Source of the DNA: Oscillospiraceae bacterium
Lineage (GTDB): Bacteria; Bacillota; Clostridia; Oscillospirales; CAG-272
Direction of reading: 5' to 3'
Assembly: GCA_015065135.1 (NCBI GenBank)
Contig: SVQY01000002.1
Coordinates: forward strand, 36,734 to 100,733
DNA length: 64,000 bases
Shown here: piece by piece, positions 1,570 to 38,180 of the stretch
Numbering within the stretch: the first letter of the stretch is position 1
Layout: every line of letters begins with the position of its first letter
Made by a program: the position numbers and the translations under genes
The notes under the pieces: model-generated
The model's input: only the letters and a program-made list of their open reading frames with translations
Told to the model about the DNA's origin: nothing
The model's database searches: none

Positions 1570-4500
1570 ATGAAACGCTTTCTTGCCCTGCTGCTGGCGC
1601 TTTGCCTGCTGATCCCCCTTGCCGTCGCGCTCCCCATAGAGGTTGGGGCGGCTACGGCACCGATTCTGCCCGTAACGCTCTCCCTCGGTTTTCCTGCCGT
1701 CAAGGCAGACGTAGGCGAGACCGTGGACCTCTCCTTTTACAGTATAACCGCCGATGACGGCAGCGTTCTTACCGCTGCCGACATCATCTGGTCATCGGCG
1801 GAGATCACCGTATCGGGAGGCAAGGTCACCCCGACGGAAAAGGGCGTTTTCTCCCTCACCGCCACGGCAAACGGCAAGGCCAAGACCGTATATCTGCTGG
1901 TTAAGGATCCCACCGACACCGAATATGTGCTGTTCGAGGAGGATTTTGAGAACACGACCTCCTTTGACGAGCTGTTGGATGAGGGTTATACGGTAGCTCA
2001 GAGGAGCGCCTCTGCCGCCATCTCGGTAACCGACGGCAAGCTGGTCCTTTCGGGTCACGCACACAAGGATTGCTATATCCGCCTGCTCCTTCCCAATTGG
2101 CTCGGAGATTTCGGCGACTACCGCATTGAGCTGAACGCCGCCATGACCAATCGCATTGCCGACTCCCATTGGATGGCATTTATGTACCGTGTGCAAAACA
2201 GTAACTATCCCTATTATCAGAACACTTTCCGCGCCGTTACCACCGCCGGCAACGGCACCGAGGTTGCCGTCCGCAATGAAAACGACGCCTGGGAGGTGGT
2301 GCATACGGCGGCTTACTCAGCCGCCATCAACGACGGCTCAAGCACCCCCTCCTATCACGATTTTGTCGTAGAAGCCTTCGGTGACTACGTCTCCTCTGTC
2401 ATTGACGGTACCGCGGTAGCCACCAACGTTTATATGCCCGAGCACGACCGCGGTCGCATCGGACTGCAGGTCCGCGCCTCCGAAATGGCGGTGGAGAGTC
2501 TGCGCGTGGTGATCCCCGCCGAAAATTCCGTGGTAGATGTGCTGGATCCCAACTCCGACGTGATCAACGCCCCTTCGATTATCACCGCGCCCGACAATGC
2601 CGCCGCGCTGACAGCCCTCGCCACAGGTGATACCCTACCCGCCATCGCGATCCTTCGCATAGACGGCGATCTGAACGTGACCTCCTCTGCGGGTACCGCG
2701 ATCTGCTCACTCGAAAACGCGCTGACGCTTTTGCACAATCGCGTGATCCCCGCCTTTCTTGTAGGGAGCAGCGAAGCCGCCGATGCCCTTGGTGCCTGGC
2801 TGGCAGATAGCGCCCTTACCGACGTCTTTGTGCTGGCAAATGACGCAAATTTGATACAACGTGTGCGAAATATTGCGCCCATCTGCCGCGGCGTGCTGGA
2901 TCTGCGGCAACGTGACCTCAAGGGTATTGCCCCTGCCACTCTCCGCGCCGAGATCAACGGCAGCGGCAGTCGCGTAGTACTGCTGCCCGCCGCTTATGCG
3001 ACCCGCGACAACGTGGCGGTACTGCACGATCTGCTGATCGCCGTCTGGACCGAGGAGGCCGCCGACACCGATACGGCGCGCGTCGGCGCCACCCTTTCGG
3101 GGGTCAACGGCATCGTCACAGCCGACCCCGCCGCCCTTGCCGCCTCCTATACCGCATATTTTATGCCCACCACCCTCACCCGCGCACCCGGCATGATCGG
3201 TCATCGCGGTACCCCCATCTACGGCCAGGAAAACACGGTGGAAAGTGCCGTGCTTGCCGTGGAGCTGGGCGCCACTCTGGTGGAAGCCGATTTCTACCTT
3301 ACCAAGGATAATATCGTGGTAGGCATGCACGATGCCACCATAGACGGCACCACCAACGGCTCCGGCAAGGTCAAGGATTTCACCTACGACGAGCTGTGTC
3401 GGTACGCAGTCAACGACAACGTGAACGTCGCCGTCAAGCCGATCCCCACCCTGCGCGAGTACTGCGCAGCCCTGAAGGGCAAGGATGTGCGACTGCTGAT
3501 CGAGGTCAAGGACGGGAACACCGCCATTTGTCAGCATATCCTGAGCATTATCGACGACTACGGCATGCGCGATCAGGTCAACGTGATCTCCTTTAACACC
3601 GCCATCCTTGAAAAATTCAAGGAGCTCTGCCCCGAGCTGTCGGTGGGCTGGCTTGGCTCGCTTTCCATGAATTATGCAAGCGCCGAAAGCGATCCCGAGC
3701 AAGCGCTGACCGAGATCCTTTCTACCGTACAGCAGTACAACTCCACCTACAATCCCAATTACAGCAGCATCGGTCCAAACCTCATCAGAGCAGCCAACCA
3801 CCGCGGCGTGCTGATCCTGCCCTGGACCATCAATAGCCGCTCTGATTTTGACAAGCTCTTCCGCTACGGCTCTCACGCCTTTACCACCGACTATACGGCA
3901 TGGGTCTCGGACTACGTAAAGGACCTGCGCACCGACAAAAATCTCTACATTTCCAATACCGTTAGTGGGGATATTCCCCTTTCGCTCTCCGCTATCGCCT
4001 ACAATGGCGGCATCAGCAGCCCCGCCCGCGCCACCCTTGCCGTGGTGGAGCAAAGCGGCACGCTTTCTCTCTCTTATGAAAACGGCGTGCTGAAAACAAG
4101 CGGCACGGGTACTGCCACCTGCCTGCTCTCCGCCTCCTTCTTTACCCATTCCGGTTCAATGTACAGTAAATGCACCGAGCTGTTCACCGTCACGGTGGAT
4201 GAAAGCTATACGCCGCCCCTTGCCGCAGGTCGCTGGCACTTGGGCAACGGAGCGCCCACGGTCACCGCCGAGGACGGTGCACTTTATCTGGATCTCGCCA
4301 ACGGAAGCCTCTATCTGTTTGACGGCGCATGGTGCCTGCAGGGCACCTTGAAAAGCGAGGCTCCCACGGTGGAGATCCGCGAGGGATATTGGTACATCGA
4401 CGGATCCGCTACCGGTGTGAGAGCCGAGGGCAAGGACGGTGCGGCAGGCACCGTTGATGCCGCGCTTTCCATCGGCGCTAACGGCAACTGGTTTATTGAC

Positions 4501-31589: not shown

Positions 31590-31603
31590 AAGAATGTTGC
31601 TAT

Positions 31604-31677
31604 GCAGGCATAGTCTAGTGGTAAAACCTCAGCTTCCCAAGCTGATGCTGCGGGTTCGATTCCCGTTGCCTGCTCCA
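31604..31677 (+). tRNA. tRNA-Gly (anticodon CCC), CCA encoded
   Basis: GCAGGCA/TGCCTGC acceptor, anticodon stem TCAGC-TTCCCAA-GCTGA, T-arm GCGGGTTCGATTCCCGT, discriminator U + CCA. Confidence 0.96.
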
Positions 31678-31683
31678 AAAACG

Positions 31684-31731
31684 GAAAAATCTCTGGAATG
31701 CCCGTAAATAGGGCGTTTCAGGGATTTTTTC
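31684..31731 (+). terminator. Putative terminator after tRNA-Gly
   Basis: Imperfect hairpin GAAAAATCTCTGGAATGCCC-GTAAATA-GGGCGTTTCAGGGATTTTTTC. Confidence 0.55.
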
Positions 31732-31825
31732 TTTGTTTTATCGGGGTTTTGGTGTTCCGAAAATGTAAATTCGGGCTTGATTTTGTAAAGGCTGTGGCGA
31801 AAAGTTTTTCCGAAATCGGAAACTT

Positions 31826-31898
31826 TGCAACACGGATGCAACACGGAAAAGGGCTTGCAACACGTCTGCAACACGTCTGCAACACGGTTGCAACACGG
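31826..31898. repeat. Six direct copies of TGCAACACG in an 11-bp-phased array
   Basis: TGCAACACG starts at 31826, 31837, 31856, 31867, 31878, 31889 (spacings 11, 19, 11, 11, 11). Confidence 0.95.
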
Positions 31899-31974
31899 TT
31901 TTTAAGGTGTGCGGCAGGGAGCCGGCGGGAGCGGGGAGCTGCTTCAAAACGGTGAGTGCGAGGAGGGTGCCTTG

Positions 31975-32038
31975 GGAGAGGTGCTCTCCTTTTTTTATTG
32001 CCAAATTCGGGCGGAGTTTTATGCTCCGCCCTTTTTTT
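31975..32038 (+). terminator. Tandem rho-independent terminators before the phage late operon
   Basis: GGAGAG-GTG-CTCTCC-TTTTTTT (31975-31996) and GGGCGGAG-TTTTATG-CTCCGCCC-TTTTTTT (32009-32038). Confidence 0.75.
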
Positions 32039-32047
32039 AGTTCTCTT

Positions 32048-32080
32048 GCAAAATGGTGACTTTTGGAAAACCCATCCGTG
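32048..32080 (+). repeat. 33-bp perfect direct repeat, copy 1 (putative phage promoter/regulatory element)
   Basis: GCAAAATGGTGACTTTTGGAAAACCCATCCGTG, identical to 47821-47853; followed by TAGCAT giving TGG-TAGCAT (extended -10-like). Confidence 0.9.
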
Positions 32081-32154
32081 GTAGCATTGTGCCAAAGATA
32101 GCGCGCTTTTTTGTCTATAGCAACGCGCGACAACATTTTTGAGGAGGATTTTTT

Positions 32155-32685
32155 ATGGAAAAACGCGAGAGCAACCGCGAGGATCTGAACGGCCGTGACG
32201 CGACAGTCATCGACGGTGTGGTGATCGACGGCGAGCTGCTGCACGATGCGGCAGTGGGCGCCTTGAGCGGAATACCGCATGGAGCTGACGAGGCTGACGA
32301 GGGGAAACGGTTGGGGAGACCCAGTACCTACGATCCTGTTTATCTTGACATGGCGGTGGAGTATTTCTCGAAGCTGCACAAGGATGAGGAGTCCGGCGCG
32401 ATCCGCGTGCCCTCCCGTGTGTTCTTCGCACGGCACATCGGGCAGCCCCACACCACCGTGAAGCACTGGGAGAAGCTGTACCCCGAGTTCGGCGAAGCGA
32501 TTGCGGACGGCATCGAGCACGCCAAGGAGCTGCGCATCATGCTTGCCGAGAACAAGCTGTTGGATGGCGCATTCTCCAAATTCGTGCTGGCATCCGCCTA
32601 CGGCATGAGTGAGAAGACTGCCGTGGAGCTTTCCGGGGCAGAGAACGGCAAATTTGAGGTCAATATCCATGTGGTGCGGGATTGA
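32155..32685 (+). CDS. terS: Phage terminase small subunit-like protein
   Basis: GRPSTYDPVYLDMAVEYFSKLHKDEES...SRVFFARHIGQPHTTVKHWEKLYPEFGEAIADGIEHAKE; immediately before the terminase genes. Confidence 0.72.
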   Translation: MEKRESNREDLNGRDATVIDGVVIDGELLHDAAVGALSGIPHGADEADEGKRLGRPSTYDPVYLDMAVEYFSKLHKDEESGAIRVPSRVFFARHIGQPHTTVKHWEKLYPEFGEAIADGIEHAKELRIMLAENKLLDGAFSKFVLASAYGMSEKTAVELSGAENGKFEVNIHVVRD

Positions 32686-33211
32686 GCTGTGGCGGATCGT
32701 GCCGGGTACCGATGACAAAATCGAGGTCAGCAATCTTGGGCGCGTGCGTTCTAACCTGCGCGACGGTCGCATCCTAAAAACGCAGAAGGATGCCAAGGGA
32801 TATGAACGGTGCCGGGTGACGATCAGAGGAAGGAAGATCACACTTAAGCTGCATCGGGCTGTAGCTGCAGCATTTATTGAAAATCCGCAGGGGCTGCCAC
32901 AGGTAAACCACAAGGACGGAAACAAGAGCAACAACACGGCTGCTAATCTGGAGTGGATTTCTGGTCTTGAGAACGCCCGACACGCGGTGCGAAGCGGTCT
33001 GTGGGAAAATGTTCTTGCAGCCTCTCGCGCAGAAAACGAACGGCGAAAAAGAGCGGTTCGGGCTACCAATATCAGCACAGGAGAAAGCGTGCTGTTTTCT
33101 TCGGTTTCGGAAGCCGAGCGCGCGATAGGCACCAGACACATTTGCGCGTGTATAAAAGGGGAACGCCGTCAAGCATGCGGCTTTACCTTTTGTTATGCAG
33201 AGGGGAGGTGA
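32669..33211 (+). CDS. NUMOD4/HNH homing-type endonuclease with C-terminal NUMOD1-like segment
   Basis: ELWRIVPGTDDKIEVSNLGRVRS...; HRAVAAAFIENPQGLPQVNHKDGNKSNNTAANLEWISGLENARHAV; RATNISTGESVLFSSVSEAERAIGTRHICACIKGERRQACGFTFCYA. Start overlaps terS by 17 nt. Confidence 0.92.
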   Translation: MWCGIELWRIVPGTDDKIEVSNLGRVRSNLRDGRILKTQKDAKGYERCRVTIRGRKITLKLHRAVAAAFIENPQGLPQVNHKDGNKSNNTAANLEWISGLENARHAVRSGLWENVLAASRAENERRKRAVRATNISTGESVLFSSVSEAERAIGTRHICACIKGERRQACGFTFCYAEGR

Positions 33212-33219
33212 TCTGCCGT

Positions 33220-34610
33220 ATGGGATTAAATCTTGAGATAACAGAGCGTCAGGATGAGTTTTTGAGCGCGACTGCTTCCGAGGTCTTGTACGGCGGTTAG
33301 GTGCCGCGGGCGGTGGAAAGAGCTACGGGCAGGTCATTGATGCCATGCTGTACGCCCTGCGCTATCCCGGCTCCAAGCAGCTGATATTGCGACGGACCTT
33401 CCCGGAGCTGGACAAATCTATCATACGTACCGCGCTGATGCTATACCCCAAGGAGATCTATTCCTTTTCGCAAACGACCCGCACCGGGCGGTTTAAGAAT
33501 GGATCTCTTATTGACTTTGGCTATTGCGAGCGAGAGAACGACGTGCTGCGCTATCAGGGTCTGGAATACGACGTGATCCGCTTCGACGAGCTGACGCACT
33601 TTACCGAGTTTCAATATCTCTACTTGATGTCCAGATGCCGCGGCGCAAATTCGTTCCCGAAACAAATGAAAAGCTCCACCAACCCCGGCAGCGTAGGGCA
33701 CGCCTGGGTGAAGGAGCGCTTTGTGGATCCCGCGCCCGCAGGGGAGATCTTTGAGGCGGAATTGCCAAACGGCAAGACCATCTCCAGGCAGTACATCCGC
33801 GCAACCGTTTACGACAACATTTTTCTTTTACGCGACGACCCCGGATACATTGACCGTCTGATGGCGTTACCCGAGAAGCAGCGCAAGGCCCTGCTGGACG
33901 GAAACTGGAACATCTTCGATGGTGTGCGCTTTACCGCCTTTGACGATCGCGTGCACGTGGTGGATCCCTTTCAGCTGCCTGCCGGCTGGAGGCGGTATCG
34001 CGCTATCGACTACGGTCTCGACCGCCTGGCGTGCCTCTGGATCGCCGTGGACGGAGACCGCAACGCCTACGTATACCGTGAGCTGTGTGAGAGCAATCTG
34101 ATCATCTCGGAGGCGGCGCGCAAGATGCGAGAGATGACTGTTGACGAGGAGATCTACGGCACCCTGGCGCCCCCCGACCTGTGGTCCCGAGGACAGGAGA
34201 CCGGCAAATCCCGTGCGCTGCTCTTTGCGGACGCGGGCGTGCCCCTTATCAAGGTGAGCAACGACCGCGCCGCCGGCTGGGCTGCCATTGACGAGCTGCT
34301 GAAGCTGCGGGAGGGCGGCATAGCCAAGCTGCACATCTTCCGCAACTGCACCGAGCTGATCAAGTGCCTGCCCATGCTGCAGATCGACCCCAAGAAGCCC
34401 GACGACGTGATGACCGAGCCCCACGAGATCACCCACGCGCCCGATGCGCTGCGCTATTTCTCCGTCTTCTTCACCCGCCCTGCGGAGGAAAAGAAGGAGG
34501 AGACAGCGGTGACACCGGACAAGTGGACCGAGGATATGTGGGAGGATTACCGCAACGCCTCATCTGCCGAGCGGCGAGAGCTGATTCGGGCGTGGGGCAG
34601 ACCGAGATGA
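33220..34610 (+). CDS. terL: Phage terminase large subunit, interrupted by a 5-nt insertion/stop inside Walker A (frameshift or translational hop needed)
   Basis: MGLNLEITERQDEFLSATASEVLYGG-stop(33298-33300), then in another frame AAGGGKSYGQVIDAMLYALRYPGSKQLILRRTFPELDKS... to 34610. SD AGGGGAGGTG before ATG 33220. Confidence 0.92.
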
Positions 34611-34627
34611 TTTTATAAGGAGGACAT

Positions 34628-36583
34628 ATGGAAATTCCAAAAGGAGACGACAGACTGGCGTTTTTTCAGGAGCTGCTGAACAGAAGCAACGCTGCCAGAG
34701 ACGACGCCTTTAACGATATCGAAAAGTGGCGCAAGCAGTATACCGGAGATCCTGCCATTGACGGCGGCGAGAAGGCAAAGGTGGTGCGCAACATCACCTA
34801 CGAGCTGATCGAGAGCCAGATCTCCACACACATTCCCGCACCCCGCGTGGATGCCAAGGTATACAGCGAGCGCAACGACCGCGGCGCCAAGAGCATCGAG
34901 CGGCTCTGCGCCACCATCCGCAACGACCTGCCCTTTGAGCGGCTGAACGATCAAGATGAGCGCAACACCTTTGTGGACGGCGCATCCGTCTATCTGGTGG
35001 AGTGGGACGAGAGCATCCGCACCCACAGCGAGTGCGGCGGTGTGCGCGTGACCGTGCTGGAGGCGGACGGGCTTTACCCCCAGCCAGGCATCTACGAGAT
35101 CCGTGACATGGACTGGGTGATATTGCGCTTTCAGTCCACCAAGGACGAGATCATTGCCAAGTACCACGTAGCCCCCGACGTTGCCGAGGAGGCGGAGAAC
35201 GATGCCATTGCAGAGACCCAGGACGAGGACATCTGCACCGTTTACGTGTGCTTTTATAAAAACAGCGAGGATCAGGTGAGCCAGTACATCTGGAGCGGCA
35301 ACACCCAGCTTGCCGACATCGACGACTACTACGCCCGCAAGCGCTACGTCTGCGCCGTGTGCGGCAGGCGGCGTGAGCTGTGCGAGAGCTTTGAGCACTG
35401 CGACTGCGGCGGGGAGTTCATTGCAGAGAGCGAGGAATACGAGGAGATCACCCGGGACGTGGTGCTGCCCGACGGCTTCACGATCCCCGCCAGGTCCCCC
35501 AAGTACGACGAGAACGGCGCGCCCGTGATGCGAAAGGTGACCAGGATCCGCACCGACAGCCACGGCGAGGCGATGCACGAGCTGATCGAGGGCGTGAGCA
35601 TACCCATGACCTACGAGGACAGCGAGCAGGACGTGGAGGTGACCAGGATCCCTTGGTACCGCCCCCGCTTCTTCCCGGTGGTGGTGCGCAAGAACACCTC
35701 CCGTCGCCGCTCGGTGCTGGGGCAGAGCGACTGCTATTTCATCCGCCCCCAGCAGCAGGAGATCAACAAGATCGAGACCCGCATCCACGAGAAGATCATG
35801 GGCTCCGGCGTTTATCCCTTCAAACCCGAGGATGCAGCCTTTGAGTTTGACGACACGGTGCAGACCCGCGTGCTGAACGTGCCGCCCGAATATATGAACG
35901 CCGCCGGGCGTGTATTCGGCGTGCTGGACATGATGCCCAACCTCCAGCAGGAGATCGCCCAGAGCGATCGCCTTTACGAGCACGCGAAGCGGATCCTCGG
36001 CATTACCAACTCCTATCAGGGCCAGGCGGACACCACCGCCAAGTCGGGCGTGGCAAAGCAGGCGCAGATCCAGCAGGCTGCGGGCAGACTTGACAGCAAG
36101 CGCGTGATGAAGAACGCTGCCTACAGTGATCTGGACCGTATTCTGTTCGAGTATCACCTCGCCTACGCGGACGAGCCCCGCCCCATTGCCTACAAGGATG
36201 CCTTCGGCAGGATGCAGAACAGCACCTTCAACCGCTATGATTTCGTGCGATACGACGAGGAGGGACACCGCTATTACTATGAAGACCGCTTCCTTTTCTC
36301 GGTGGATCAGAACGGCGGCGCGGACACCCAACGGGAGGTGCTGTGGCAGCTCAATCAGCAGAATTTCAGCGCCGGTGTATACGGTGACCCCGCACAGATC
36401 GGCACCCTGCTGCGCTACTGGCAGATGCAGGAGCAGGCCCATTACCCCCACGCCCGTGAGAACGTGGAGTACTTTACCGAGCTGCTGGAGCGTGAGCGCG
36501 CAGCCATGAACGACGCGGTGGGGCAGGGACAGCCCGCACCGGGCAATAAGATGATGACAGGAGGTGCCGCAAATGGCATTTGA
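34628..36583 (+). CDS. Phage portal protein (podovirus type) with internal zinc-ribbon-like insert
   Basis: 651 aa after terL; RNITYELIESQISTHIPAPRVDAKVYSERN; insert RYVCAVCGRRRELCESFEHCDCGGEF; SYQGQADTTAKSGVAKQAQIQQAAGRLDSKRVMKNAAYSDLDRILF. Confidence 0.82.
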   Translation: MEIPKGDDRLAFFQELLNRSNAARDDAFNDIEKWRKQYTGDPAIDGGEKAKVVRNITYELIESQISTHIPAPRVDAKVYSERNDRGAKSIERLCATIRNDLPFERLNDQDERNTFVDGASVYLVEWDESIRTHSECGGVRVTVLEADGLYPQPGIYEIRDMDWVILRFQSTKDEIIAKYHVAPDVAEEAENDAIAETQDEDICTVYVCFYKNSEDQVSQYIWSGNTQLADIDDYYARKRYVCAVCGRRRELCESFEHCDCGGEFIAESEEYEEITRDVVLPDGFTIPARSPKYDENGAPVMRKVTRIRTDSHGEAMHELIEGVSIPMTYEDSEQDVEVTRIPWYRPRFFPVVVRKNTSRRRSVLGQSDCYFIRPQQQEINKIETRIHEKIMGSGVYPFKPEDAAFEFDDTVQTRVLNVPPEYMNAAGRVFGVLDMMPNLQQEIAQSDRLYEHAKRILGITNSYQGQADTTAKSGVAKQAQIQQAAGRLDSKRVMKNAAYSDLDRILFEYHLAYADEPRPIAYKDAFGRMQNSTFNRYDFVRYDEEGHRYYYEDRFLFSVDQNGGADTQREVLWQLNQQNFSAGVYGDPAQIGTLLRYWQMQEQAHYPHARENVEYFTELLERERAAMNDAVGQGQPAPGNKMMTGGAANGI

Positions 36584-38180
36584 TGAGAAGGAGAAGGATA
36601 AGAATACCGCCGTGGCGGAGCCGAAGGAGAGCCCTGCGGCGCCTGCTGCTCCCACAGCGCCCCCCGCGACCGGCGGCTACGGAGACTATCTTGCCGCCAA
36701 GCAGACGACCCCTGCCGTTGGCGGATACGGAGACTATCTGGCGGGCAAGACGGCGCCCGTGAGCAGCGCCGTCAGCGGCTACGGTGATTGGCTGGCCACC
36801 CAGCAGAAGAACCACGAGGTGGAGACCGCTCCCAAGGAGGGAATGACCTACGGAGACTACCTTGCCTACACCGGAAAGGACCCGGTAGGGGATTACAACG
36901 CCAAGGTGCGGCAGGCAGAGCTGGACTACCAAAAGGGGCTTGCCACCTACGGGCAGAACGCCGAGAGGATGGCGAAGGCAGGGCTTGCGAAAAGCGGCTA
37001 CGGTGAATACCTTGCCGGGGAAGCCTTTGCTGCCCGCGGCGCTGCCGTGACCGCCGCGCAGCAGGAGGCGAAAACCGCCCAGCAGCAGAGCTTTGCCACC
37101 TACGGTGAGTATCTGGAGGGGCTGAAGCAAAAGGAGCAGCAGGAGGCGGAAATTCAAGCCGCAGAGCAGGAGCAGCAGGCTGCCGTGAAGCAGCAAAATC
37201 TTGCAAACGCCACGGCTGCGGTGTCGGGGACTATGGAGAACGGCGCGACCGTGGATGCGGCGATCGGCAGCTTGTCGGGCGTATACGATGCAGCAACACT
37301 GGAGCAGGTGCGCAACAACATGACGACCTCCAATCTGACGCAGGCGCTTTCCGGCAGCAGCATTCAGATCGGGCTTGACGACACCCTGAAGGGGGTGACC
37401 GACGAGTGGCTTGCCTCCTCCTCTCTGAAGGATGCGGAAGGCAACGCCTACACCGTGGCGAGCTTGAGAAAGGCGATGCAAGGCAATAACTATAAGTTCC
37501 TTACCGAAATGATCAATACCGGCAGCTCCGCCGGGCTGCAGGCGTATGCCTCTTACCACGGGATCGGCGGAGATCTTTCTAACGTAGAGGTGGTGGACAA
37601 GATCGTGGATCATATGGTAAGGAGTGGCGCGTTGACCGAGGATCAGTATAAGCAGTACGTGACCGACAAATATATCGCAAACGCGGACGATCTTGAAAGC
37701 GGCAGAGACTTTCTTGAAACGATCACAAACGTGTATCAGAACGCCGATATGACCGACGAGCAAAAAGAAGAAGTGTTGAATACGCTGCAGGAGTATTCTA
37801 ACGAAAAGCTTGGCCAAGTGCAGATGAATGGAATTCGATGGGGCTACAAGAACAGCAGCGGCGTTGTTCATCCGACAAAAATATGGCTTAATCAAGGAAA
37901 TGGTAAAGAGGTTATGGTTCCGATGCACATAAAAAGAGGAGCTGGAATTAGCGAGGAAAAGGTGGACGAGATTATTCCTTTGTATTCCAATCCAAGGGAA
38001 TACAGCGGGTATTATGCACCCCAAAACAACAACCAAGCGATTGAGCTTGGTGTATTAGACGGGCAAATAGTCATCAATTATGGCACCACTTGGTATTGTG
38101 CATCGTTTGAATTTAACGACAAAACAGAAAAATTTGTAGCTTGGGCATTGCTCAACAACAGAAAAAAGGAGTCGGTATAA
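36573..38180 (+). CDS. Virion-associated protein with [G/T]YG[D/E][Y/W]L repeats, unknown function
   Basis: AGGAGG Shine-Dalgarno; GGYGDYLAAKQ, GGYGDYLAGK, SGYGDWLATQ, MTYGDYLAYTG, SGYGEYLAGE, ATYGEYLEG; AT-rich C-terminal ~130 aa. Confidence 0.65.
   Translation: MAFDEKEKDKNTAVAEPKESPAAPAAPTAPPATGGYGDYLAAKQTTPAVGGYGDYLAGKTAPVSSAVSGYGDWLATQQKNHEVETAPKEGMTYGDYLAYTGKDPVGDYNAKVRQAELDYQKGLATYGQNAERMAKAGLAKSGYGEYLAGEAFAARGAAVTAAQQEAKTAQQQSFATYGEYLEGLKQKEQQEAEIQAAEQEQQAAVKQQNLANATAAVSGTMENGATVDAAIGSLSGVYDAATLEQVRNNMTTSNLTQALSGSSIQIGLDDTLKGVTDEWLASSSLKDAEGNAYTVASLRKAMQGNNYKFLTEMINTGSSAGLQAYASYHGIGGDLSNVEVVDKIVDHMVRSGALTEDQYKQYVTDKYIANADDLESGRDFLETITNVYQNADMTDEQKEEVLNTLQEYSNEKLGQVQMNGIRWGYKNSSGVVHPTKIWLNQGNGKEVMVPMHIKRGAGISEEKVDEIIPLYSNPREYSGYYAPQNNNQAIELGVLDGQIVINYGTTWYCASFEFNDKTEKFVAWALLNNRKKESV

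Follow-up and report, generated by a model that had tools for sequence, protein, structure and literature searches.

The window analysed here, a stretch of 64,000 nucleotides (nt) from contig SVQY01000002.1 (positions 36,734 to 100,733; assembly GCA_015065135.1) of an Oscillospiraceae bacterium, carries a prophage whose terminase gene terL is interrupted, within the codons of the Walker A motif, by five nucleotides that bring a stop codon into frame. We propose, with a probability of about 0.7, that this terL is functional and is read via a 5-nt translational bypass (stop-hop) linked to the homing of an HNH endonuclease, which would make the locus a miniature counterpart of the T4 gene 60/mobA cassette. 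An earlier note on this DNA had already raised this possibility: a minimal hop that would carry the ribosome over UAG from one Gly codon to an identical one, with a homing endonuclease involved as in T4. Sequence comparison favours the proposal because the same architecture recurs in other phages, because HNH genes are enriched next to interrupted terL genes, because a pair of genes that share a gap is under purifying selection and because a related gap is found in four cultured phages.

A direct reading of the window divides terL into three parts:

33220 to 33297, + strand: 5' part of terL, encoding MGLNLEITERQDEFLSATASEVLYGG, its last codon being the putative take-off codon GGT (33295-33297); read directly, with the N-terminal pattern up to YGG also found in 22 other interrupted terL genes.
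33298 to 33302, + strand: the 5-nt interruption TAGGT (stop TAG at 33298-33300; the same as TA between two GGT codons), missing from the relatives L004 and L027.
33303 to 34610, + strand: 3' part of terL, AAGGGKS and onwards (remaining Walker A, ATPase and nuclease domains), assigned with Pfam and PHROG.

The frame that opens at ATG 33220 thus runs into the in-frame TAG directly after YGG, and the letters across the seam are TAC GGC GGT (33295-33297) TA GGT (33300-33302) GCC GCG GGC GGT GGA AAG AGC, where the second GGT shares a base with the stop. The frame of GGT 33300 encodes (G)AAGGGKS, is 5 nt out of phase with the start of terL and remains open to the stop that ends at 34610; between its preceding stop and Walker A it contains no ATG, GTG or TTG. 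Its product matches Pfam Terminase_6N (8e-12), Terminase_3 (1e-9) and several PHROG terL families, and apart from the 5-nt seam there is no frame break in the gene. The claims of the earlier note that TAG 33298-33300 stops terL, that the remainder is open to 34610 and that this remainder is intact were therefore borne out. The closest relative is L004, of the same genus and with 75% amino-acid identity; its terL is uninterrupted, with VLYGGAAGGGKS at the corresponding place, and follows directly after terS with no HNH gene between them. Because L004 reads through the same place uninterrupted, the window terL, as judged from this alignment, is the carrier of a net 5-nt insertion (TAGGT, equivalently GGTTA) exactly within the Walker A codons.

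The interruption is far from unique. We have searched the 2.9 million contigs of IMG/VR for inserts that break the Walker A codons; a match counted as real if, by eye, an open frame resembling terL preceded YGG. With TRRGN as the pattern of the 5-nt insert nine matches were obtained, eight of which were terL genes that all read GG(T/A) TAG GN (among these eight, one was the window's own phage and two were one and the same phage). Since the TRRGN pattern is narrow, the scans were widened to any 5 nt and then to any 1-16 nt, which yielded 22 further distinct terL genes interrupted at the same codons, YGG(A/S)^xGGGK, and thus 23 including that of the window. The inserts measure 4-8 nt, and the 1-16 nt scan of IMG/VR gave no real case with an insert of 3 nt or of 9-16 nt. 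Many of these genes are mutually just ~25-50% identical, and on contigs of sufficient length neither half is truncated or broken elsewhere, the C-part measuring ~400 amino acids or more. One of them, in L028 (oriented 1933-4062), also bears an intein-like insertion between NPGGRGH and C. A scan for Walker A motifs of the GSGK type gave no real case, a pattern scan of 398 genomes gave no match except in the window's own genome, and a search for isolates via HNH homologues or terL DNA gave no isolate with an HNH-linked stop-hop, the inspected HNH relatives being located away from terL.

The seams obey two simple rules. First, the last intact codon is immediately followed by a stop (TAG, TGA or TAA) in 22 of the 23 genes, for which the chance is 3/64 per case (binomial probability about 1e-28). 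Second, the last intact codon and the codon before resumption are synonymous in 19 of the 23 (13 Gly/Gly and six Ala/Ala); in the window they are GGT and GGT, which are decoded by the same tRNA family. Because the scan patterns required YGG ahead of the insert and an Ala codon among those of the P-loop behind it, the codon match is in part conditioned, although the chance of a match still amounts to about 1/16 to 2/17 per case. The base preceding the take-off codon varies freely. A random scar was rejected as explanation for the class, considering the immediate stop in all real inserts but one and the two open halves; on these sequence features, the interruption is no such scar and the window terL is a member of a recurrent class. 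Duplication of a transposon target was rejected as well, since in many cases the codons on the two sides are not identical (GGT/GGA, GCA/GCG).

The comparison of terL genes with and without an adjacent HNH gene, an idea of the earlier note, revealed a clear genomic association. An HNH-type gene is present directly upstream of terL in 11 of 22 interrupted loci versus none of 68 intact ones (Fisher p 1.7e-8), where the intact controls come from the same collection and are not matched by phylogeny or habitat. Ten of the 11 were recognized by Pfam and one by its similarity to another HNH. In three loci that lack an upstream HNH gene, one is found at the 3' end of terL or behind it: L034 (called by eye only, with no Pfam match), L055 and L242, which has a long gap. 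The HNH_3 open reading frame of L055 (9475-9942) overlaps the terL reading frame, which is unusually long, in its 3' part. In the window the gene and the adjoining ribosome-binding signal are located as follows:

32669 to 33211, + strand: NUMOD4/HNH (I-HmuI-like) endonuclease gene between terS and terL (NUMOD4 1e-9, HNH_3 5e-7); an extension to GTG 32609 is possible, the limits given being the most likely ones.
33203 to 33212, + strand: Shine-Dalgarno-like site of terL, GGGAGGTGAT, overlapping the HNH stop codon; read directly.

The distance from the end of the gene to the terL ATG is 8 nt, as the earlier note had it, and the Pfam matches agree with the NUMOD4/HNH assignment made there. At least four groups can be distinguished among the upstream HNHs. 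The window HNH shares 60% identity with the HNH of L064, 49% with the one in L047 and about 30% with that of L033, and the terL products beside this group are 26-49% identical and have differing gaps (TA, TGA, TAAC, TA). Related endonucleases beside divergent terL genes with different gaps imply that the endonuclease moves and that the gaps differ. In L057 the HNH gene lies between two direct copies (77 base pairs, 82% identity) of the sequence that encodes the TerL N-terminus, at 2788-2864 and 3366-3442, and the upstream copy matches as far as the YGG codons. In sequence terms the repeat looks as if a cassette of an HNH gene plus a fresh terL 5' end was placed into Walker A.

The rates of substitution indicate that interrupted genes stay functional. 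L065 and L069 have exactly the same 8-nt gap, GGC-TGACT-GGT; outside it their terL genes are 83% identical in DNA, with a synonymous distance (dS) of ~1.0 and ratios of nonsynonymous to synonymous substitutions (dN/dS) of 0.059 (C-part) and 0.019 (N-part). If the gap was inherited, as its identity suggests, both halves would have been under strong purifying selection with the gap present, which argues that an interrupted terL works and that its protein must be made across the gap. As far as can be judged from these alignments, a truncated short peptide together with an untranslatable Walker A cannot account for this selection. Two other pairs can be added: L059 and L064 share GCN-TGA-GCA (dN 0.13, dS saturated), and in L207 and L270, which have long gaps, the downstream terL is intact with a dN/dS of 0.14. 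Internal initiation, or a restart at Walker A, is not the answer for most of the genes, as only 5 of the 23 have any start codon upstream of Walker A in the frame that resumes there.

A related gap exists in phages that have been cultured. The terL of the Streptomyces phage phiHau3 has a 10-nt gap in its Walker A (KGWG, then GGC-TTACTCC-GGT AAG GAC) between matched Gly codons, in which UUA takes the place of the stop. The gap, GGC-TTAC(T/C)CC-GGT, is common to the four cultured phages phiHau3, GreenWeasel, BroPlease and Triumph, whereas in other relatives the match to a 71-base-pair probe covers about 61 bases and thus lacks the gap. The public annotations of Triumph (L200) and BroPlease (L199) begin terL after Walker A and record a truncated terminase, evidently because of the gap. 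A second 10-nt gap of the TTA type, TCT-TTAACGG-TCC with matched Ser codons, is located further downstream in terL, before LNETHHW, in phiHau3 (L197, about 2920-2936) and GreenWeasel (L198); it is absent in BroPlease and Triumph.

The lengths of the gaps are informative with respect to the mechanism. A scan of IMG/VR for gaps of 17-46 nt yielded at least five loci with gaps of 39-42 nt, several of them containing strong hairpins, at the same Walker A codons:

L207, 2312-2380: gap of 41 nt with a hairpin.
L307: gap of 41 nt, grouped with L207.
L270, 1001-1072: gap of 42 nt, with one extra G in the hairpin stem compared to L207.
L242, 1552-1622: gap of 42 nt with a hairpin and GGA as landing codon.
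L276, 381-448: gap of 39 nt, GGA/GGA.

L207 and L270 are 93% identical in DNA and yet have gaps of 41 and 42 nt; likewise, L039 and L071 (81% amino-acid identity) have gaps of 5 and 6 nt. Landing on a matched codon independent of frame is the hallmark of bypassing, and this pattern in the sequences favours a hop over a shift.

The alternative that fares best, and which we consider unlikely, holds that interrupted terL genes are expressed by programmed frameshifting or stop read-through. In the window a -1 shift at GGT-TAG would give YGG-LG-AAGGGKS, with two extra residues, and the Walker A pattern GxxxxGKS survives such a shift. Moreover, L045 (GGT TGA C) is similar to a +1 shift site, and the 6-nt gaps of L059, L064, L071 and L072 are in frame and could be read through. 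However, one mechanism must serve gaps of 4, 5, 6, 7 and 8 nt at a single site, and frameshifting would require -1 for the 5- and 8-nt gaps, +1 for the 4- and 7-nt gaps and read-through for the 6-nt gaps, all at that one site. Furthermore, the window site C GGC GGT TAG contains no slippery heptamer of the form X XXY YYZ, the changes of gap length by 1 nt in the two pairs above leave terL intact, and the matched codons of 19 of the 23 genes would have no explanation.

The earlier note had also considered a scar that kills the phage. In this case the terL of the window would be resistant to the endonuclease but dead, and either decaying or rescued by the TerL of another phage. Considering that the window represents a single prophage in a metagenome-assembled genome, that this genome has a second, intact terL and that the window terL has no gap-bearing relative on which selection could be tested, such a loss of function is conceivable, but for this single prophage we regard it as quite improbable. 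Random indels would give neither the immediate stop nor the matched codons, the window terL has no other frame break, the pairs L065/L069 and L207/L270 are under purifying selection and gaps in Walker A occur in cultured phages; taken together, recurrence, HNH enrichment, selection and cultured phages fit badly with a lethal scar.

The remaining readings can be treated briefly. An assembly or sequencing error of 5 nt is highly improbable: a stretch of 7453 nt that includes the 5 nt is the same in the window and in the IMG/VR contig L024, and although this copy may derive from the same sample, numerous unrelated contigs, as well as finished genomes of isolates, show this architecture too. HNH genes frequently reside in group I introns, which might point to removal of the insert at the level of DNA or RNA (splicing or programmed excision), but this is hardly credible for gaps of 4-10 nt, far below any known intron size and variable in sequence; no Rfam intron match was obtained at window 31600-36700 or in six other gap loci, and no group I intron or intein is recognizable between the terL halves, where the insert is 5 nt. 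An alternative genetic code was rejected, as the C-parts of about 400 codons lack in-frame stops and the stop codons are thus not reassigned.

According to the proposed stop-hop, the ribosome would decode GGT (Gly, the final G of YGG), after which UAG would enter the A site; the peptidyl-tRNA-Gly would then release and re-pair with the GGU located 5 nt downstream, to yield exactly YGGAAGGGKS, which is the uninterrupted Walker A motif. The HNH endonuclease may cut the conserved Walker A DNA, and the gap would be the protected seam: an insert of 5 nt would be a cheap way to spoil this DNA as target of the adjacent NUMOD4/HNH enzyme. Endonuclease, terL 5' end and gap would travel as a single cassette, like T4 mobA and the gene 60 bypass. 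The hop itself and its efficiency, the cutting at Walker A and its prevention by the insert are what we infer.

Several observations weigh against this proposal. In half of the interrupted loci there is no HNH gene directly upstream, which means that the gap can persist with no endonuclease next to terL. The gap-bearing relatives of the window terL consist of the identical contig alone, so that selection there is uninformative. The flanking codons are unmatched at four of the 23 gaps (L039, L045, L071 and L072), and the gap of L075 has no stop. No RNA structure signal was found around the short gaps (mean z -0.15), the RNA fold 3' of them showed no excess over controls, and neither MGLNLEITERQDEFLSATASEVLYGG nor the surroundings of the short gaps contain a KKYK-like nascent-peptide signal. 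T4 gene 60 depends on help from nascent peptide and RNA for its high efficiency, and synthetic stop-hops are, to our knowledge, inefficient. Considering the missing RNA structure signal, the efficiency of the hop at short gaps could be low; TerL is required in few copies.

The window terL is part of the gene order terS-HNH-terL-portal, the outer members of which are:

32155 to 32685, + strand: terS, small terminase subunit (PHROG 3064 terminase, 3e-11).
34628 to 36583, + strand: portal protein gene, open, 3' of terL (PHROG 156 portal, 3e-28).

Just left of the terS-HNH-terL operon there is a tRNA gene (31604-31674, Rfam 62 bits) that is a possible prophage attachment site. A cluster of GCAACACG repeats upstream of terS (31826-31905) is possibly a packaging or terS binding site. 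The second terL of the genome is of another lineage (40% identity) and is encoded at G000:C18 10364-11569 (L023).

For decades, the well-studied cases of efficient natural bypassing in bacteria and phages have comprised essentially one example, T4 gene 60. About two dozen terL genes with a fixed site and simple rules would supply the expected set of short natural bypasses (PMC5009743), would make the minimal requirements for hopping directly testable and would tie bypassing in general to the conflict with homing endonucleases. They would also explain why terL genes are split or discarded by annotation pipelines, and 'frameshifts' of terL in viral metagenomes need not mean errors or dead genes. 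The recurrence in about two dozen diverse phages, with terL genes that otherwise look functional, suggests that ribosomes routinely jump the seam. On balance, we lean towards the wider view that mobile cassettes of an HNH gene, a terL 5' end and a stop-hop seam are widespread and home into the Walker A of terL, with seams that range from 4-10 nt to hairpin bypasses of about 40 nt, and that hopping is a routine and repeatedly evolved way to make an essential gene immune to the endonuclease.

A comparison with known bypass systems puts the window seam in perspective. It resembles T4 gene 60 in having TAG directly 3' of the putative take-off codon (a rule that holds in 22 of the 23 loci), in its matched GGT/GGT take-off and landing codons (synonymous in 19 of the 23) and in the endonuclease gene that adjoins terL at 32669-33211; moreover, the hairpin in the T4 gap has its likeness in the long-gap loci L207 and L270. 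It differs in the size of the gap (50 nt in T4 versus 5 nt in the window), in the gene concerned (a topoisomerase subunit in T4, terL at its Walker A here) and in the recurrence of the terL gaps in many diverse phages. A long structured gap with a hairpin is found only in L207, L270 and L242 and is absent from the window, the short gap of which also lacks a KKYK-like signal. Short natural counterparts of gene 60 have long been presumed to exist (PMC5009743). The terminase of phiHau3 has been suspected of bypassing (Smith et al. 2013, as cited in PMC5009743), and the passage on it in that review ties the gap to UUA decoding in Streptomyces and not to HNH homing. This gap resembles that of the window as it lies in the Walker A of terL between matched Gly codons, has a length that is not a multiple of three and belongs to a cultured phage, but it differs in its 10 nt and UUA sense codon versus 5 nt and a stop. 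Synthetic stop-hops include +5 and +6 shifts with matched codons flanking a stop (Weiss et al. 1987, as cited in PMC5009743) and have the same geometry as the terL gaps (codon, stop, a few nt, matched codon), although these were laboratory constructs. As of the 2016 review no natural in-frame stop-hop was known (PMC5009743); the 6-nt terL cases L059 and L064 would be candidates. In the mycobacteriophage Corndog, the tape-measure gene beside an inserted HNH has lost its normal start while peptides are still made, and bypass is one of two explanations that were proposed (PMC4351075). The HNH insertion adjoining a structural gene is the common element, whereas the gene is another one and gap and landing are undefined there. 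The mitochondria of Magnusiomyces contain recurrent bypassed inserts, with hopping sometimes between imperfectly matched codons (PMC5009743); recurrent short inserts are likewise tolerated via hopping, but the system is mitochondrial, affects many genes and is not tied to one motif. Because it lacks the hairpin and the nascent-peptide features, the window seam is a variant apart from the T4 type, and by its way of working it belongs with translational bypassing.
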